From a virus: a stretch of 64,000 nucleotides of DNA. The notes below the pieces were generated by a model. It had not been told where the DNA came from. It worked only from the letters and a program-made list of their open reading frames with translations, and did not search any database. The stretch lies in IMG/VR virus record IMGVR_UViG_3300019487_000026, positions 25,344 to 89,343 of that record, one strand, 5' to 3'. The position numbers were made by a program, and so were the translations under genes. Position 1 is the stretch's first letter; every line of letters starts with the position of its first letter. Shown one piece after another: positions 2,481-61,416 of the stretch.

Positions 2481-2582
2481 TGGAGCGGATACCGAGAGTC
2501 GAACTCGGGACTGGACCTTATTATAAGCACTTTGTCAAATGCTCATAGGCAAGGTTCCGTTTTACCACTAAACTATATCCGC
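2481..2582 (-). tRNA. trnG: tRNA-Gly(GCC) with a 28-nt hairpin inserted after the anticodon
   Basis: The acceptor GCGGATA/TATCCGC, the D-arm, the T-arm CCGAG-TTCGACT-CTCGG and encoded CCA are all normal. The anticodon arm reads GGAACC-TTGCC, then 28 extra nt (2520-2547), then AA-GGTCC. Removing the 28 nt restores the standard loop TTGCCAA. The insert forms an 8-bp stem (TATGAGCA with TGCTTATA, one G-T). It is either a small intron-like insert or an extended, non-decoding arm. A normal Gly(GCC) tRNA exists at 38437. Confidence 0.8.
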
Positions 2583-12990: not shown

Positions 12991-13066
12991 TACGATTGCT
13001 TATCGTAGAATGGCCATAGGTGGAGGGATAGACCCTCAACCACTAATTTTGGAAGGATTTTCCAAA
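12991..13066 (+). promoter_or_regulatory. structured leader of nadM-nudix with sequestered ribosome site
   Basis: Three stems are visible: TACGAT/ATCGTA (12991-13007); GAGGG-ATAGA-CCCTC extended by GGT/ACC (13019-13041); and TTTGGAA-GGATT-TTCCAAA (13048-13066), which encloses the GGAAGGA ribosome site and the A of the start codon. The layout suggests translational control. The ATAGA loop recurs in the nadV leader (55271-55291). Confidence 0.5.
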
Positions 13067-14043
13067 TGCCTACGTATCAATACGACTACATTGTTTTCAT
13101 TGGCCGATTTCAGCCATTCCATAACGGACACAAATATGCCCTTGATCGAGCTCTAACACTTGCTGAGCGAGTGATTGTGTTTGTTGGTAGTGCCTTTCAG
13201 CCTCGTACAATCAAGAATCCGTTCACGGCTGAAGAGCGTATCGAAATGCTTCATTCCGTATATCCGGACAACAAACAACTTATTTCTCTACCTATTCGCG
13301 ATCAACTGTACAACGATCAGCGCTGGATTGCGGAGATTCAGGAGAAGACGCGTACCGTGATCGCCGCTGCTGGTTGGCGCCCGGGCCCAACGAAAATTGG
13401 AATCACGGGGTTCAGCAAAGACGAAAGTTCATATTATCTCGATCTGTTCCCCCAGTGGGAATCTGTTCCGCATGAACCAATCGATATGATCAATGCGACC
13501 GACATTCGGCGATTGCTGTTTGAAGGAATCAGCGCCTCGTTCGTTAAGAGTACGATGCCTGAAGTTGTTTTCGACTATGTGTCGAAATTCAAGAATTCAG
13601 ACGACTTCAAACAACTGCGTCGTGAGTACGACTTTATCAAGCAGTATAAGGCTGCTTGGAGTGTTGCTCCATATGCGCCAACCTTTCTTACCGTCGATGC
13701 AGGTGTTATTCAGTCGGGACACATTCTGCTCGTTCAACGCAAAGCGTCTCCAGGGGAGGGATTGTGGGCTCTGCCGGGTGGTTTTGTTAATCAGAACGAA
13801 ACGATTGTTGATGCGATGGTTCGTGAGCTTCGCGAAGAGACTAAACTTAAGGTTCCTGCTCCCGTGTTGAAGGGTTCGATCAAAGCAATGAAAGTATTCG
13901 ATCATCCTGATCGTTCTTTGCGTGGACGAACTATTACTCATGCACACCTGATCGAGCTGCCGGCAGGTCCGCTACCTGCTGTCAAAGGTGGTGATGACGC
14001 AAAGAAAGCAAAATGGTTTCCGATCAGTGAAATCCGGAGTTAA
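13066..14043 (+). CDS. nadM: bifunctional NMN adenylyltransferase / Nudix hydrolase
   Basis: 325 residues. The N-terminal nucleotidyltransferase domain has GRFQPFHNGH (13-22) and a later TDIRR; the C-terminal domain has the Nudix box GG-x5-E-x7-RELREET (about 240-260). Fusions of this order occur in bacteria and many large phages. The first domain makes NAD from NMN and ATP, the second likely cleaves ADP-ribose or oxidised nucleotides. With NadV (55316) it completes the two-step salvage of nicotinamide to NAD. Confidence 0.9.
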   Translation: MPTYQYDYIVFIGRFQPFHNGHKYALDRALTLAERVIVFVGSAFQPRTIKNPFTAEERIEMLHSVYPDNKQLISLPIRDQLYNDQRWIAEIQEKTRTVIAAAGWRPGPTKIGITGFSKDESSYYLDLFPQWESVPHEPIDMINATDIRRLLFEGISASFVKSTMPEVVFDYVSKFKNSDDFKQLRREYDFIKQYKAAWSVAPYAPTFLTVDAGVIQSGHILLVQRKASPGEGLWALPGGFVNQNETIVDAMVRELREETKLKVPAPVLKGSIKAMKVFDHPDRSLRGRTITHAHLIELPAGPLPAVKGGDDAKKAKWFPISEIRS

Positions 14044-15012: not shown

Positions 15013-15051
15013 CTTTTGCGGTTCGACCATATATAGTTAACCCTTACAATT

Positions 15052-15126
15052 GCGGGTTAGAGCAGAAGTAGCTCGCCTGGCTCATAACCAGGAGGCCGTG
15101 GCGTGCAATTCCCACACCCGCTACCA
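15052..15126 (+). tRNA. trnM: tRNA-Met(CAT), elongator or Ile2 type
   Basis: Acceptor GCGGGT/ACCCGC with a 7-66 mismatch, anticodon arm CCTGG-CTCATAA-CCAGG, CCA encoded. The T-loop is unusual (GTGG ... CCAC around CGTGCAATTC), lacking TTCGA. C34 could be lysidine-modified for Ile. It is followed at once by a structured non-coding stretch. Confidence 0.7.
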
Positions 15127-20156: not shown

Positions 20157-20230
20157 GCGCGATTAGCTCAATGGGAGAGCAATTGTCTCTAAAACTTTGG
20201 TTGAGGGTTCGAGTCCCTCATCGCGCACCA
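20157..20230 (+). tRNA. tRNA with CTA anticodon (amber suppressor type), imperfect anticodon stem
   Basis: Acceptor GCGCGAT/ATCGCGC, D-arm GCTCAATGGGAGAGC, T-arm GAGGG-TTCGAGT-CCCTC and CCA are all good. The anticodon loop CTCTAAA puts CTA at 34-36, reading UAG. The stem ATTGT/ACTTT has two T-T mismatches. Several genes here end in TAG, so it either causes partial readthrough or is decaying. Confidence 0.65.
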
Positions 20231-38568: not shown

Positions 38569-39843
38569 ATGAAAAAGTTTGGTGCACTTGCAATCGACCT
38601 CGAATGGAAAGATGATCCTCGTTGGAATGGCGTAAAACGACCGTATACTGGCGAAGACGTGTACAAATTACAAGGGTCGATGCCCATCCAGTACACACTA
38701 GCAACTCACGGTGCATATAAACTTTGGAATATGTTGCATGAACGTCCATTCGTCCATGCACTTGGTGCTGTCACGGGCATGCAAGCTTTGCAACAAGTTA
38801 AAGCAGGCTTGCCAGCAATTTATTTGTCGGGTTGGCAAGTTGCAGCTGATGCAAACGACAGCTTGAATATGTATCCTGATCAATCATTGTACGCTACGAC
38901 AAGTGTGCCAACGGTTGTTGAACGTATCAACAACACATTGAGTCGTGCGGACCAAATCCAGCACATGGAAGGGCGAGACGAGATTGATTACTTCGCCCCA
39001 ATCGTTGCTGATGCTGAGGCTGGCTTTGGAGGAGTGCTAAACGCACACGAGCTGATGAAAGCAATGATTCGTGCAGGTGCTGCGGGTGTCCATTTTGAAG
39101 ATCAACTTGCCTCTGTCAAGAAATGTGGGCACATGGGTGGTAAGGTTCTTGTGTCGACCCGTGAAGCTGTTGAAAAACTGGTTGCAGCTCGTCTCGCAGC
39201 CGACATTATGGGTGTGCCTACAGTATTGTTTGCACGAACCGATGCAGAGGCGGCGAACTTGATTACAAACGATGTCGACGAAAATGACAAACCATTCTTG
39301 ACAGGTGAACGAACTGTTGAAGGTTTCTATCGTGTGCGAAACGGTCTCGAACAAGCTATCTCGCGCGGTCTTGCTTATGCACCGTATGCAGATCTTGTGT
39401 GGTGTGAGACGGGAAAACCTGATCTCGAGTTCGCGAAGAAATTTGCGGAAGCGGTGCTGCGTGAAAATCCAACTAAGATGTTGGCGTACAATTGTTCGCC
39501 ATCGTTTAACTGGAAAAAGAATCTTGACGACGCAACGATTGCAAAATTCCAGCACGAGCTTGGAGCGATGGGATACAAGTTCCAATTCATTACGCTGGCA
39601 GGATTCCATGCGTTGAACTACTCGATGTTTGACCTTGCACATGGATATGCTCGACACAATATGTCAGCGTTTGTCGAGCTTCAAGAGAAAGAATTTAAGG
39701 CTGCTGCGGTTGGCTTCACTGCTGTGAAGCATCAGCGCGAAGTTGGGACGAGTTATTTTGATGAGATCACGCAGGTGATCCAGTCGCGCATGTCCTCAAC
39801 AACTGCGTTGAAAGGTTCGACCGAAGAAGAGCAGTTTCACTAA
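38569..39843 (+). CDS. aceA: isocitrate lyase
   Basis: 424 residues, full bacterial length. KKCGHMGGK (184-192, catalytic Cys186), metal-binding [10 protein letters not shown] (147-156), [10 protein letters not shown] (88-97) and the C-terminal TEEEQF are all present. Splits isocitrate to glyoxylate and succinate, the first step of the glyoxylate shunt. Start chosen at the ATG after AAAGGAG. Apparently intact and not truncated. No malate synthase gene in the window. Likely redirects host carbon (inference). Confidence 0.95.
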
Positions 39844-49253: not shown

Positions 49254-49356
49254 GCTGGCTTAGCTCAGTTGGTAGAGCTCCTGATTTGTTGAATGTCTTT
49301 TTTGAGGACATTGAACAATCAGGAGGTCGAGGGTTCGAGTCCTTCAGCCAGCACCA
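49254..49356 (+). tRNA. trnT: tRNA-Thr(TGT) with a 27-nt hairpin inserted after the anticodon
   Basis: Acceptor GCTGGCT/AGCCAGC, D-arm GCTC/GAGC, T-arm GAGGG-TTCGAGT-CCTTC, A73 and CCA are normal. The anticodon arm is CCTGA-TTTGT, then 27 extra nt (49290-49316), then AA-TCAGG. Removing them gives the standard loop TTTGTAA. The insert has a perfect 6-bp stem AATGTC/GACATT, and TTGTT/AACAA can pair across the insert boundary. Only Thr tRNA in the window. Confidence 0.85.
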
Positions 49357-55315: not shown

Positions 55316-56722
55316 ATGCGTAGTAATCTGATTTCTAACCTTATTCTCAACACCGACAGCTATAAAGCCTCACATTGGCTCCAGTACCCTCCTGGTACGC
55401 GCAATGTGTATTCGTACATTGAAAGCCGAGGCGGCAAATGGCCCAAGACCGTGTTCTTCGGTCTCCAGTATCTTCTGAAAGAGTACCTCACCAAGCCAAT
55501 CACACAAGAGGTGATTGACCAGGCTGAAAAGTTTTGGAAGGCTCATGGCGAGCCGTTCAATCGACCAGGTTGGGAGTACATTCTCAAAGAGCACAACGGC
55601 TACCTGCCTGTTCGTATTCGTGCTGTCCAAGAAGGGACGATCGTTCCTACTCACAATGTCCTCGCGACAGTTGAGGCAACTGACGAAAAGTGCTACTGGC
55701 TCGTTTCATACATTGAGACAATGCTGATCAGAGCTGTGTGGTATCCAACAACGGTCGCTACCAACAGCTATCACGTCAAAGAAACTATCAAGAGGTATCT
55801 CGAAGAAACGGGGACGCCTGAACTGATCAATTTCAAATTCCACGACTTTGGTGCACGCGGCGCAACTGTTTTCGAACAAGCCGGAATCGGTGGTGCTGCT
55901 CACCTTGTCAACTTCATGGGAACAGACACTGTCGCAGGTGCTCTGTTTGCGATGGAGTATTACAACGCTGATGAGCCTGTTGGCTACAGTATTCCTGCCG
56001 CTGAACATTCAACAATGACGTCGTGGGGCGGTCGAGACGGTGAATGGAAAGCTATGGAAAACATGGTTGACCAATATGGTGGCGATGGCAACCTGTATGC
56101 GTGCGTTAGCGACAGCTACGATATCTATCATGCAATCACTGAAATCTGGGGCCGGAAACTGAAAGACAAAGTCCTCAAGAAGGGCGGAACGTTGGTTGTT
56201 CGTCCTGACAGTGGAGATCCAGTCGAAGTGACTCTCAAGTGCGTCGAGCTTCTCGGTGATGCATTCGGCTACACCGTCAACAGCAAAGGTTACAAGGTCC
56301 TGCATCCGTCAGTACGCCTGATCCAAGGCGATGGCATTACTGGAGAAGAAGTTGAGAAGATCCTTGAGAGCTACAAACGTCATGGCTGGTCTGCTGACAA
56401 CATTGCATTCGGTTGCGGTGCGGGTCTCCTGCAAAAAGTTGATCGCGACACGCTGAAGTTTGCAATGAAAGCCAGCTCAATCAACATCGACGGTGTGTGG
56501 CACGATGTATACAAAGATCCGGCTACAGACAAGGGGAAGAAATCGAAGCGAGGTCGTATTACGCTGTACAAAGACCCTGCGGAAGGTTTCCACTATAGTA
56601 GTCTGCTAGTTGAAGGACCATCCACACATGGGGTGAAGGATGAGTTGATTACCGTGTTCGAAAATGGGAAAATTTTGAAGGAATGGAACTTCGCCGAAGT
56701 GCGTGCGAAGGCCAATGAGTAA
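55316..56722 (+). CDS. nadV: nicotinamide phosphoribosyltransferase
   Basis: 468 residues, full length for NadV/NAMPT. TDSYKASHWLQYPPGT near the start, RDGEWKAM mid-protein, RPDSGDP (about 302-308) and GDGITGEEV match the family's nicotinamide and PRPP sites. Makes NMN from nicotinamide and PRPP; NadM-Nudix (13066) takes NMN to NAD. Phage NAD salvage rebuilds NAD that host defences deplete or that ADP-ribosylation consumes. Confidence 0.95.
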   Translation: MRSNLISNLILNTDSYKASHWLQYPPGTRNVYSYIESRGGKWPKTVFFGLQYLLKEYLTKPITQEVIDQAEKFWKAHGEPFNRPGWEYILKEHNGYLPVRIRAVQEGTIVPTHNVLATVEATDEKCYWLVSYIETMLIRAVWYPTTVATNSYHVKETIKRYLEETGTPELINFKFHDFGARGATVFEQAGIGGAAHLVNFMGTDTVAGALFAMEYYNADEPVGYSIPAAEHSTMTSWGGRDGEWKAMENMVDQYGGDGNLYACVSDSYDIYHAITEIWGRKLKDKVLKKGGTLVVRPDSGDPVEVTLKCVELLGDAFGYTVNSKGYKVLHPSVRLIQGDGITGEEVEKILESYKRHGWSADNIAFGCGAGLLQKVDRDTLKFAMKASSINIDGVWHDVYKDPATDKGKKSKRGRITLYKDPAEGFHYSSLLVEGPSTHGVKDELITVFENGKILKEWNFAEVRAKANE

Positions 56723-58914: not shown

Positions 58915-60078
58915 GTGAAAGCACAAGCTGTCATTGGTAGTAATTTCGGTGATGAGGGCAAAGGTCTCATCACCGATTACCTTGTCTCTAAGGCCGAGAA
59001 GCCTGTCGTCATTCGTTTCAATGGCGGAGCACAGGCTGGACATACTGTCGTTCTGCCCGACCAGCGCCACGTCTTTCATCATTTTGGTTCGGGAACATTT
59101 GGTCAAGCACCAACATTCCTCAGTGAGTTTTTCGTAGTCAATCCTCTCCTGTATTTTCGTGAACTAGACCAGCTTCTTGCGAAGAATGTGCGACCCGTTG
59201 TTGTTTTAGATGTACGAGCCGCTCTTACCACACCGTTTGATATGATGATTAACCAAACGGTTGAAATGGCTCGCGGAACTGCTCGGCACGGAAGCTGTGG
59301 TGTCGGTATTAACGAAACAATTACACGAAATGAACGTCCCGAATATCGAACAATTGTTGCAGATCTCTTCGATCAAAATGCCCTTCGTCAAAAACTGATG
59401 CTGATTCGAGATGGCTATGTGAAAACCCGTATCCACCAATTGCTGGGTCGAGACGAGATTATTCCAGATCTTAAGCATGATGTATTGATCGACAACTTTC
59501 TTTTCTTCGGGAAAGAATTACTTAATGCAACATTTCCTGTTGACAATCTATCGTACATGAAGCGATTCAAGACGTTCGTGTTCGAAGGTGCACAAGGATT
59601 GCTACTTGATGAATTTCATTATTGGTTTCCTCACGTGACAAGATCACGCACGGGAATGGTCAATGTCAATAAGATTGCCCATGAGCTTGGTTTGCAAAAA
59701 GTCGATGCATATTTCGCAACGCGGTCCTATCTCACGCGGCACGGAGCAGGTCCATTACCGTTTGAAGCACCCGGCAAAATATATGACAAGATCGAAGATA
59801 CGACAAACATTACAAACGCATATCAAGGATCGCTGCGATTTGCACCACTGAATCTGGATCTACTCAAAGAGAGCATTGCCAGAGAACTTACGGGATCCCA
59901 CATCACACCACACCTTGTGATCACGTGCCTAGATCAGGTGTCTGGTACTCCACAGTATGTTTTGAATAATCAGCTAATCGTTAAAGACGACCTGACAATT
60001 CAGACGAGCAATCTTCTTCCGTTCAAATCCGTCCTTGGTTCATATGGACCAACAAGGAACGATATTAGAACACTTTGA
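58915..60078 (+). CDS. purA: adenylosuccinate synthetase
   Basis: 387 residues. FGDEGKG (11-17) keeps the catalytic Asp13, and NGGAQAGHT supplies the catalytic His; FVFEGAQG follows. Makes adenylosuccinate from IMP, Asp and GTP. In phage PurZ (2-aminoadenine synthesis) the Asp is replaced, so this looks like ordinary PurA. GTG start. Confidence 0.88.
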   Translation: MKAQAVIGSNFGDEGKGLITDYLVSKAEKPVVIRFNGGAQAGHTVVLPDQRHVFHHFGSGTFGQAPTFLSEFFVVNPLLYFRELDQLLAKNVRPVVVLDVRAALTTPFDMMINQTVEMARGTARHGSCGVGINETITRNERPEYRTIVADLFDQNALRQKLMLIRDGYVKTRIHQLLGRDEIIPDLKHDVLIDNFLFFGKELLNATFPVDNLSYMKRFKTFVFEGAQGLLLDEFHYWFPHVTRSRTGMVNVNKIAHELGLQKVDAYFATRSYLTRHGAGPLPFEAPGKIYDKIEDTTNITNAYQGSLRFAPLNLDLLKESIARELTGSHITPHLVITCLDQVSGTPQYVLNNQLIVKDDLTIQTSNLLPFKSVLGSYGPTRNDIRTL

Positions 60079-60590: not shown

Positions 60591-60965
60591 ATGCCGAACA
60601 AACTTCACGAAATTGTGTTTGAATTCAACGTTCATCGTCCCGGACGAGGTGGAACTTATACAATATTTCGGCGAACGTATGTGCTTACATACGAGAAAGA
60701 TACAACGCCTGGATCTCGGAGATTGCTTTATCGAGAACAGCATTGGTCAACGCTTCTAATGATAGCGGAGCGTGTTATTGATATAACACGGGGCGTCTGG
60801 CTCAAGGATCGAAAGGATGATTCTTGTCAGCAGAGGCATTTGTCGCGCCGAGAACTTGCTGTATGGAGAGATACGCCTTGGATGGATATCGAGGACATTT
60901 TTAAAGAACTGTTGGCAGATGGTACACTACGCCTTGTTGATTCTGGACTCTGTCCCTGGTGGTAG
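60591..60965 (+). CDS. protein of unknown function
   Basis: 124 residues, Arg/Trp rich, beta start then helices. The 40 bp to the divergent PAP2 gene hold both start regions. Confidence 0.6.
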   Translation: MPNKLHEIVFEFNVHRPGRGGTYTIFRRTYVLTYEKDTTPGSRRLLYREQHWSTLLMIAERVIDITRGVWLKDRKDDSCQQRHLSRRELAVWRDTPWMDIEDIFKELLADGTLRLVDSGLCPWW

Positions 60966-60978
60966 TCAGAGGAGCATT

Positions 60979-61416
60979 ATGAAAATTACAACGTTTTTTG
61001 GTGAGCATCGCTTCTTGTCGAATTTCTTCCGCGCGGAATTCGTGTGGGATGGGATTGTTTGGCCAACAAGCGAACATGCCTATCAAGCCGCTAAGACACT
61101 TGACGCAAAAGTTCGATTGGAAATCTCACGAACGCCAAAGCCAGGTGATGTCAAGCGGCTCGGCAAAAAAGTTATCTTGCGCACTGATTGGCCTACAGTC
61201 AAGGTTGATGTGATGCGTGAGATTATTCGAGCAAAATTCGAACAAAATCCTGAATTAAAGCAACGTTTGATTGATACCGGCGAAGCTATTCTCGAGGAAG
61301 GAAATACCTGGAACGATTGCTTCTGGGGCATTTCTCCACCCGGTAGCGGACAAGGACGCAATGAACTTGGCAAGATCCTAATGGAATTGCGCATAGAATT
61401 TGGAGGTGGCAAATGA
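60979..61416 (+). CDS. NADAR (YbiA-like) domain protein
   Basis: 145 residues. FLSNFF near the start, WPTSEHAYQAAK (~29-40) and GGKILMELR-type end with WNDCFWG are the NADAR/DUF1768 pattern. Family members remove ADP-ribose or act on N-glycosidic bonds. GAGGAG site. Coupled (ATGA) to the SLOG gene, a pairing seen elsewhere in large phages. Confidence 0.85.
   Translation: MKITTFFGEHRFLSNFFRAEFVWDGIVWPTSEHAYQAAKTLDAKVRLEISRTPKPGDVKRLGKKVILRTDWPTVKVDVMREIIRAKFEQNPELKQRLIDTGEAILEEGNTWNDCFWGISPPGSGQGRNELGKILMELRIEFGGGK

Follow-up and report, generated by a model that had tools for sequence, protein, structure and literature searches.

Hairpin inserts in the anticodon loops of phage tRNA-Thr and tRNA-Gly genes: candidate mini-introns in large phages

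Introduction

The first report of introns in phage tRNA genes came from Lak phages (Devoto et al. 2019, PMC6784885), and such introns have been called enigmatic since then, because enzymatic tRNA splicing of this sort is not known from bacteria. The Lak introns, which include one in tRNA-Thr(TGT), came to light when genes that carry the insert were compared with genes that lack it; some were described as harbouring a possible tRNA, and they were reported to be typically identical across cohorts (PMC6784885). In the literature that we searched, which leaves many subscription papers and preprints outside its coverage, no description of a removal route for phage tRNA introns was found. Group I introns are self-splicing ribozymes of 200 or more nucleotides. 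Their presence in the anticodon loops of bacterial tRNAs has been reviewed (PMC3984707). Fusions of an HNH domain to an Rnl2-type RNA ligase are also known, with proposed roles in the repair of damaged RNA or in attack on DNA (PMC7824862).

Here we analyzed a 64,000-nucleotide stretch of DNA (hereafter, the window) from the viral record IMGVR_UViG_3300019487_000026, in which a first-pass annotation had described a tRNA-Thr gene interrupted in its anticodon loop by a 27-nt hairpin and a second tRNA, on the other strand, with an insert of similar size after nucleotide 36.

Interrupted tRNA-Thr and tRNA-Gly genes of the window

The interruption of the tRNA-Thr gene was confirmed. The gene spans 49254-49356 on the plus strand, laid out as exon, insert and exon of 36 + 27 + 40 nt (Table 1), and cmscan matched it at 49254-49353 (+) with 60.4 bits and an E-value of 1.4e-10, skipping 30 nt in the anticodon loop. 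ARAGORN missed the gene in its ordinary mode and, with the 27 nt removed, called it tRNA-Thr(tgt), in keeping with the earlier claim that removal restores the loop; the joined exons aligned with annotated phage tRNA-Thr genes without a gap over 76 of 76 nt (best matches 88-89%). Junctions were placed here and below by requiring a seven-nucleotide mature loop with a sensible anticodon, and those of the Thr gene read ...CCTGATTTGT for the 5' exon, TGAATGTCTTTTTTGAGGACATTGAAC for the insert and AATCAGG... for the 3' exon. The acceptor, D and anticodon stems are perfect and CCA is present, as are G1-C72 and C2-G71, which are known Thr identity pairs. The insert comprises a 9-bp stem, a G.G mismatch, a U-A pair beyond the mismatch and a 2-nt 3' tail, so that its stem is longer than the 6 bp first read. 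None of 200 shuffles folded as well as the precursor (z = -5.45), and the insert alone was equalled by 0.55% of its own shuffles. The predicted fold of the interrupted tRNA is a near-continuous helix, broken by one bulged U and the G.G mismatch, within which the hairpin hides the anticodon.

As the first-pass annotation had said of the window, this is the only Thr tRNA found there, and none was found in the remainder of the 89,343-base record; nor did the record yield another complete copy of the sequence with the insert. A search for relatives through the protein encoded downstream of the gene returned none, a DNA similarity search with the whole locus against phages returned a single tRNA fragment and nothing more, and at the Rfam gathering threshold the locus matched tRNA only, with no known intron class.

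Table 1. Positions of the interrupted tRNA genes and of associated loci.
Feature	Sequence	Coordinates	Strand	Remarks
tRNA-Thr(UGU) 5' exon, nt 1-36	Window	49254..49289	+	ends ...CCTGA TTTGT
Putative intron of tRNA-Thr, 27-nt hairpin between nt 36 and 37	Window	49290..49316	+	
tRNA-Thr 3' exon, nt 37-76, including encoded CCA	Window	49317..49356	+	
tRNA-Gly(GCC) 5' exon	Window	2548..2582	-	ends ...GAACC TTGCC
Putative intron of tRNA-Gly, 28-nt hairpin between nt 36 and 37	Window	2520..2547	-	
tRNA-Gly 3' exon, including encoded CCA	Window	2481..2519	-	
Interrupted tRNA-Asn of Agrobacterium phage Atu_ph07	MF403008.1	323893-324023		record carries no annotation for the gene
Interrupted tRNA of Atu_ph07, probably Thr (L275)	MF403008.1	about 335123-335196		
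Interrupted tRNA-Asn of Salicola phage SCTP-2	MF360958.1	L289:3730		T-arm-like insert
NAD-salvage, NADAR and Acb1 genes	Window and its record (L124)	55316-56719, 13066-14040, 60817-61413; L124:17103-17762		

The second tRNA proved to be a tRNA-Gly(GCC) gene (2481-2582, minus strand) whose 28-nt insert forms an 11-bp stem with a 2-nt 3' tail. It too was missed by ARAGORN in ordinary mode and called correctly without the insert. An identical insert-bearing copy is present in an independent contig (L170), so an assembly error is unlikely for the Gly gene; the Thr gene lies outside the coverage of that contig, and the same structure occurs in independent relatives of the Thr gene.

Conservation of the hairpins and their junctions

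A scan of IMG/VR with a pattern for the interrupted tRNA-Thr found the same insert type in two other viral contigs (L203 and L208). In these and the window the ends of the insert are invariant (UGA...UGAAC/AA, the slash marking the junction), as is the G.G mismatch. All 10 insert pairs are kept in the three sequences, and at four of them both partners have changed. When the entire tRNA structure is counted, pairing holds in 99% of cells, compared with 36-45% in slid controls; shuffled and slid controls stayed well below the observed conservation. Coming from three sequences, the covariation is good, not massive, evidence that the stem is maintained. The Gly insert type occurs in three contigs (L142, L143 and L159) with site and tail as in the window, with changes on both sides at 3 of 9 stem pairs and identical surroundings. 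Compensatory changes across related genomes, which the first-pass annotation had suggested looking for, are thus seen in both families.

The geometry at the junctions is also regular. The Thr hairpins of the window, L203 and L208 and four short Gly hairpins have no unpaired nucleotide on the 5' side and two on the 3' side, and the Asn and Lys inserts at 35/36 described below have a constant 1/5 geometry (10 of 10). Exceptions to the 2-nt rule are two Thr inserts (L211 and L213) with an offset of 4 by RNAfold, and the group at 34/35 differs too. Cuts of the RNase III type characteristically leave a 2-nt 3' overhang. While the constant geometry is compatible with a nuclease that reads structure, the overhang is only a suggestive hint of an RNase III-type enzyme.

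Interrupted tRNAs in other phages

In a wider search, viral contigs were examined with stricter sequence patterns and a tRNA-shape scan; a broad D-arm/T-arm pattern had given at least 120 stretches, many of them chance matches or of another type, and was set aside. Similar inserts were found in many viral contigs, large phages among them, within tRNA genes for Asn, Lys and Thr. One large group consists of tRNA-Asn genes (U1-A72, G73) with inserts of 35-49 nt between nucleotides 35 and 36, mostly carrying a T-arm-like hairpin (e.g., GTTCRAYTC) on a covarying stem, and a Lys tRNA gene (L134) has the same layout. Several of the Asn inserts had been read as His, Tyr, Val or Ile with the anticodon placed straight after U33; U1-A72 and G73 identify them as Asn, a reassignment that moved the insert site to 34/35 or 35/36. 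Excision of the T-arm-like inserts by RNase P and RNase Z was considered and rejected, because cleavage by RNase Z would not trim its side completely and surplus nucleotides would remain. Two cultured phages, Agrobacterium phage Atu_ph07 and Salicola phage SCTP-2, carry interrupted tRNAs; the Thr reading of the second Atu_ph07 gene requires a U-C mismatch at the loop base and is less certain than the Asn reading of the first. A genome scan that took in bacterial chromosomes gave 59 stretches, largely archaeal introns, and those bacterial stretches that passed the stem filter resemble class II tRNAs, tandem duplications or an insert of another kind (L249).

The first-pass annotation had placed the inserts at one exact position. 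This is true of both hairpin families, Thr and Gly, in which the site is invariably 36/37, and not of the other inserts, whose sites read best as 33/34, 34/35 or 35/36. The refuting observation named in the first-pass annotation, inserts that differ in position among relatives, was therefore half borne out, although covariation and the gap-filling described below still favour excision.

Two further kinds of insert were observed. One, of about 40-45 nt (L005, L058, L062, L065, L076, L073, L081, L087 and L101), has a hairpin followed by a CAGCAA-like motif and often lies at nt 29/30 of the anticodon stem; its hosts are Gln, Lys, Asn, Thr and Gly tRNAs, and removal by eye gives good stems. The other, with the motif CGCT..AGC..GTTCCTA (L079, L085, L107, L108, L020 and L051), lies in the anticodon arm at variable positions, including after U33.

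Interrupted genes as probable gap-fillers in phage tRNA sets

For twelve phages with full or partial coverage, we compared the interrupted isotype with the intact tRNAs. In 9 of 13 cases no intact tRNA had that isotype, where 3.2 such cases would be expected (P = 2e-4), under a simple null of random isotypes and with some records partial and related phages not independent. Restricting the count to records with at least 20 intact tRNAs gave 7 of 10 (P = 1e-4). A Val case (L151) was excluded from the main count as it had been assigned knowing the missing isotype; its inclusion gives 10 of 14 (P = 3e-5). All of these counts are to be read with the caveat that junctions were chosen to give sensible isotypes. 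Intact copies stand beside the interrupted isotype in three phages (G002, G006 and G035) and, for Gly(GCC), in the window phage. The published tRNA set of Atu_ph07 covers every amino acid except Asn and Thr (PMC6102473), and the two hidden interrupted tRNAs of this phage, read as Asn and Thr, complete it. Published phage tRNA sets are incomplete because standard tRNA finders miss or misname interrupted genes.

Genome context and candidate enzymes

The 89,343-base record of the window holds about thirty tRNA genes, a tmRNA, an RNA ligase, Thg1 and genes of NAD metabolism, and most likely represents part of the genome of a large phage that infects an alphaproteobacterium. The tmRNA is permuted and of alphaproteobacterial type (L124:16615-16818, minus strand). 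Genes for NAMPT and a NadM-like protein (NAD salvage), a NADAR domain and the anti-CBASS protein Acb1 suggest several counter-defence functions. Genes of the isocitrate lyase and adenylosuccinate synthetase families (38569-39840 and 58915-60075 of the window) were also noted, as were intein domains in a ribonucleotide reductase and an AAA ATPase (L124:31-5109 and L124:7378-9486). Two unusual tRNA genes lie in the window: a suppressor-type tRNA with anticodon CTA (20157-20230, plus strand) and a tRNA-like gene (15051-15123, plus strand) with the loop CTCATAA and an unusual T-loop, which scores 48 bits in Rfam and is missed by ARAGORN.

Of the enzymes that the first-pass annotation had proposed seeking elsewhere in the genome (an RNA ligase, RtcB or an endonuclease), we found an HNH-like/RNA-ligase fusion of 363 aa (L124:17778-18869, in the record and outside the window), and neither RtcB nor an archaeal-type endonuclease. 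The Rnl2-type ligase domain of the fusion matches PF09414 (4.7e-23) and has an intact KLDG, K-x-D-G being invariant; with proteins from Caulobacter and Salicola phages the fusion shares 55-56% identity. In its N-terminal HNH-like region C35, C38, H46, H47, N64, C69 and H73 are invariant in five homologues, two of which match Pfam HNH (4e-05, above the cut-off, and 0.0038, below it) while the window phage's own protein does not. A strict pairing of fusion and insert was rejected, since several insert-bearing phages lack the fusion and Caulobacter phages in which the pattern found no insert have it. A T4 Rnl1-type ligase occurs in 10 of the 10 insert-bearing records of at least 180 kb and in 12 of 19 control jumbo phages (Fisher one-sided P = 0.03, with controls that were not random); it was not found in the incomplete record of the window. 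EndA (PF01974) was found in none of the 22 insert-bearing records, the window's being incomplete, whereas four archaeal controls matched. RtcB was likewise found in none of the 22 phage records, host RtcB lying outside this search, and its controls matched. The ligation step thus has good candidates and the cutting step none that is proven.

A splicing interpretation and its alternatives

On the evidence of sequence comparison, we consider it probable that the window encodes a functional phage tRNA-Thr(UGU) with a mini-intron that is excised from the RNA, the exons being religated by an ATP-dependent ligase. In the transcript the hairpin would prolong the anticodon stem, burying the anticodon, and would come away as a stem-loop whose 3' end overhangs by 2 nt; the exons, held by the tRNA fold, would then be rejoined by an ATP-dependent RNA ligase. 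In the window phage the HNH-Rnl2 fusion is the only dedicated candidate seen for this ligase, and in most large insert-bearing phages a T4 Rnl1-type enzyme could serve. The cutter is a guess: an enzyme that makes staggered cuts in double-stranded RNA (host RNase III, for example) or else the HNH domain would be compatible with the 2-nt offset and would leave the 5'-P/3'-OH ends that the ligase requires. That the insert is removed, that this happens at the RNA level and which enzymes take part is what we infer; excision from the RNA is probable because the hairpin keeps its shape as its letters change and because the uninterrupted isotype is often missing. Splicing as an interpretation is well supported by the comparative evidence, and the first-pass view that the inserts belong to a system is supported by clean removal in silico with exact restoration of a canonical tRNA, by covariation, by recurrence in many phages, often in the only tRNA of its kind, and by the presence of a ligase gene.

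More tentatively, large phages might possess a minimal, protein-based form of tRNA splicing, in which introns of constant geometry are released by a staggered cut of double-strand type and the exons sealed by phage ligases, one HNH-ligase fusion possibly doing both steps in some phages. To our knowledge, bacteria have no known enzymatic tRNA-splicing machinery of this kind, and if true this would be a bacterial route of tRNA splicing unrelated to EndA/RtcB and to ribozymes.

It is unlikely that the insert is never removed and that the RNA acts as a decoy or regulator, such as bait for an anticodon nuclease or a stable RNA that binds tRNA enzymes. The hiding of the anticodon in a near-continuous helix and the intact Gly(GCC) tRNA beside the interrupted one would suit a decoy; however, interrupted isotypes are mostly the sole gene for their amino acid, as in the completed set of Atu_ph07, and the exons retain a full tRNA whose junctions give back a 7-nt loop. 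Protection from anticodon nucleases, as the first-pass annotation had offered, found nothing in its support. Somewhat less likely still is a conditional tRNA, an inert precursor that an infection-linked nuclease would cut and that repair by the phage ligase would switch on. The cut sites are located where anticodon nucleases act and the ligases come from families that repair such damage (PMC7824862), but the sequence gives no sign of conditional cutting, and two cuts rather than one would be required.

Self-splicing, with the insert alone or together with the exons as a small ribozyme, would account for the failure to find a protein splicing endonuclease in the 22 insert-bearing records. We regard it as very improbable for a single plain 27-nt hairpin whose sequence is free to vary except at its ends and which has no match to an Rfam ribozyme or a group I or II intron at the gathering threshold. 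An intron of archaeal or eukaryal type, with EndA cleaving at a bulge-helix-bulge and RtcB sealing the exons, is scarcely credible: the site lies in the anticodon loop near the canonical 37/38 and the same DNA pattern picks up many archaeal tRNA introns, yet the fold contains no bulge-helix-bulge, the site is 36/37 and neither enzyme was found in the 22 records. Gene decay or misassembly can practically be dismissed, for although the window's Thr insert is known from one assembly only, the stems are perfect with CCA, independent phages show compensatory changes and another assembly carries the Gly insert unaltered.

Together, covarying stems, constant junctions and gap-filling make the puzzle of excision testable, and two cultured phages are among those that lend themselves to such tests. 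Phage RNA ligases would have a further role in addition to repair if splicing of the inserts takes place.

Comparison with known systems

The window insert is neither a bulge-helix-bulge intron nor a group I intron. Like the pre-tRNA introns of archaea and eukaryotes, which are processed by EndA or TSEN with RtcB or Trl1, it is a short insert in the anticodon loop; those introns have a bulge-helix-bulge and the canonical 37/38 site, whereas the window insert has no bulge-helix-bulge, lies at 36/37 and is accompanied by neither enzyme in our searches. Group I introns in bacterial tRNAs likewise interrupt the anticodon loop but are 200 nt or longer, compared with the 24-50-nt hairpins of these phages and the 27 nt of the window, which has no Rfam match. 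The ligases of T4-type repair (Rnl1/Pnkp) and the HNH-Rnl2 proteins of jumbo phages are ATP-dependent and join 3'-OH to 5'-P ends, and the window phage has an HNH-like/Rnl2 fusion; their proposed roles are repair or attack on DNA (PMC7824862), in contrast to the removal of an encoded intron suggested here.

The closest likeness is to the Lak introns, which are also inserts in phage tRNAs, tRNA-Thr among them; as with those, removal from the genes described here yields a canonical tRNA, and the Lak introns with a possible tRNA inside are alike to our Asn inserts with their T-arm-like hairpin. By comparison with the Lak introns as described, those of the window are plain hairpins of 27-28 nt that end in 2-nt 3' tails, and their phage is of alphaproteobacterial type; inserts of the window type covary between phages, whereas Lak introns were reported to be typically identical across cohorts. 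Phage tRNA introns have thus been known since the Lak report (2019), and the window case differs from them in size and shape, in host type and in covariation.
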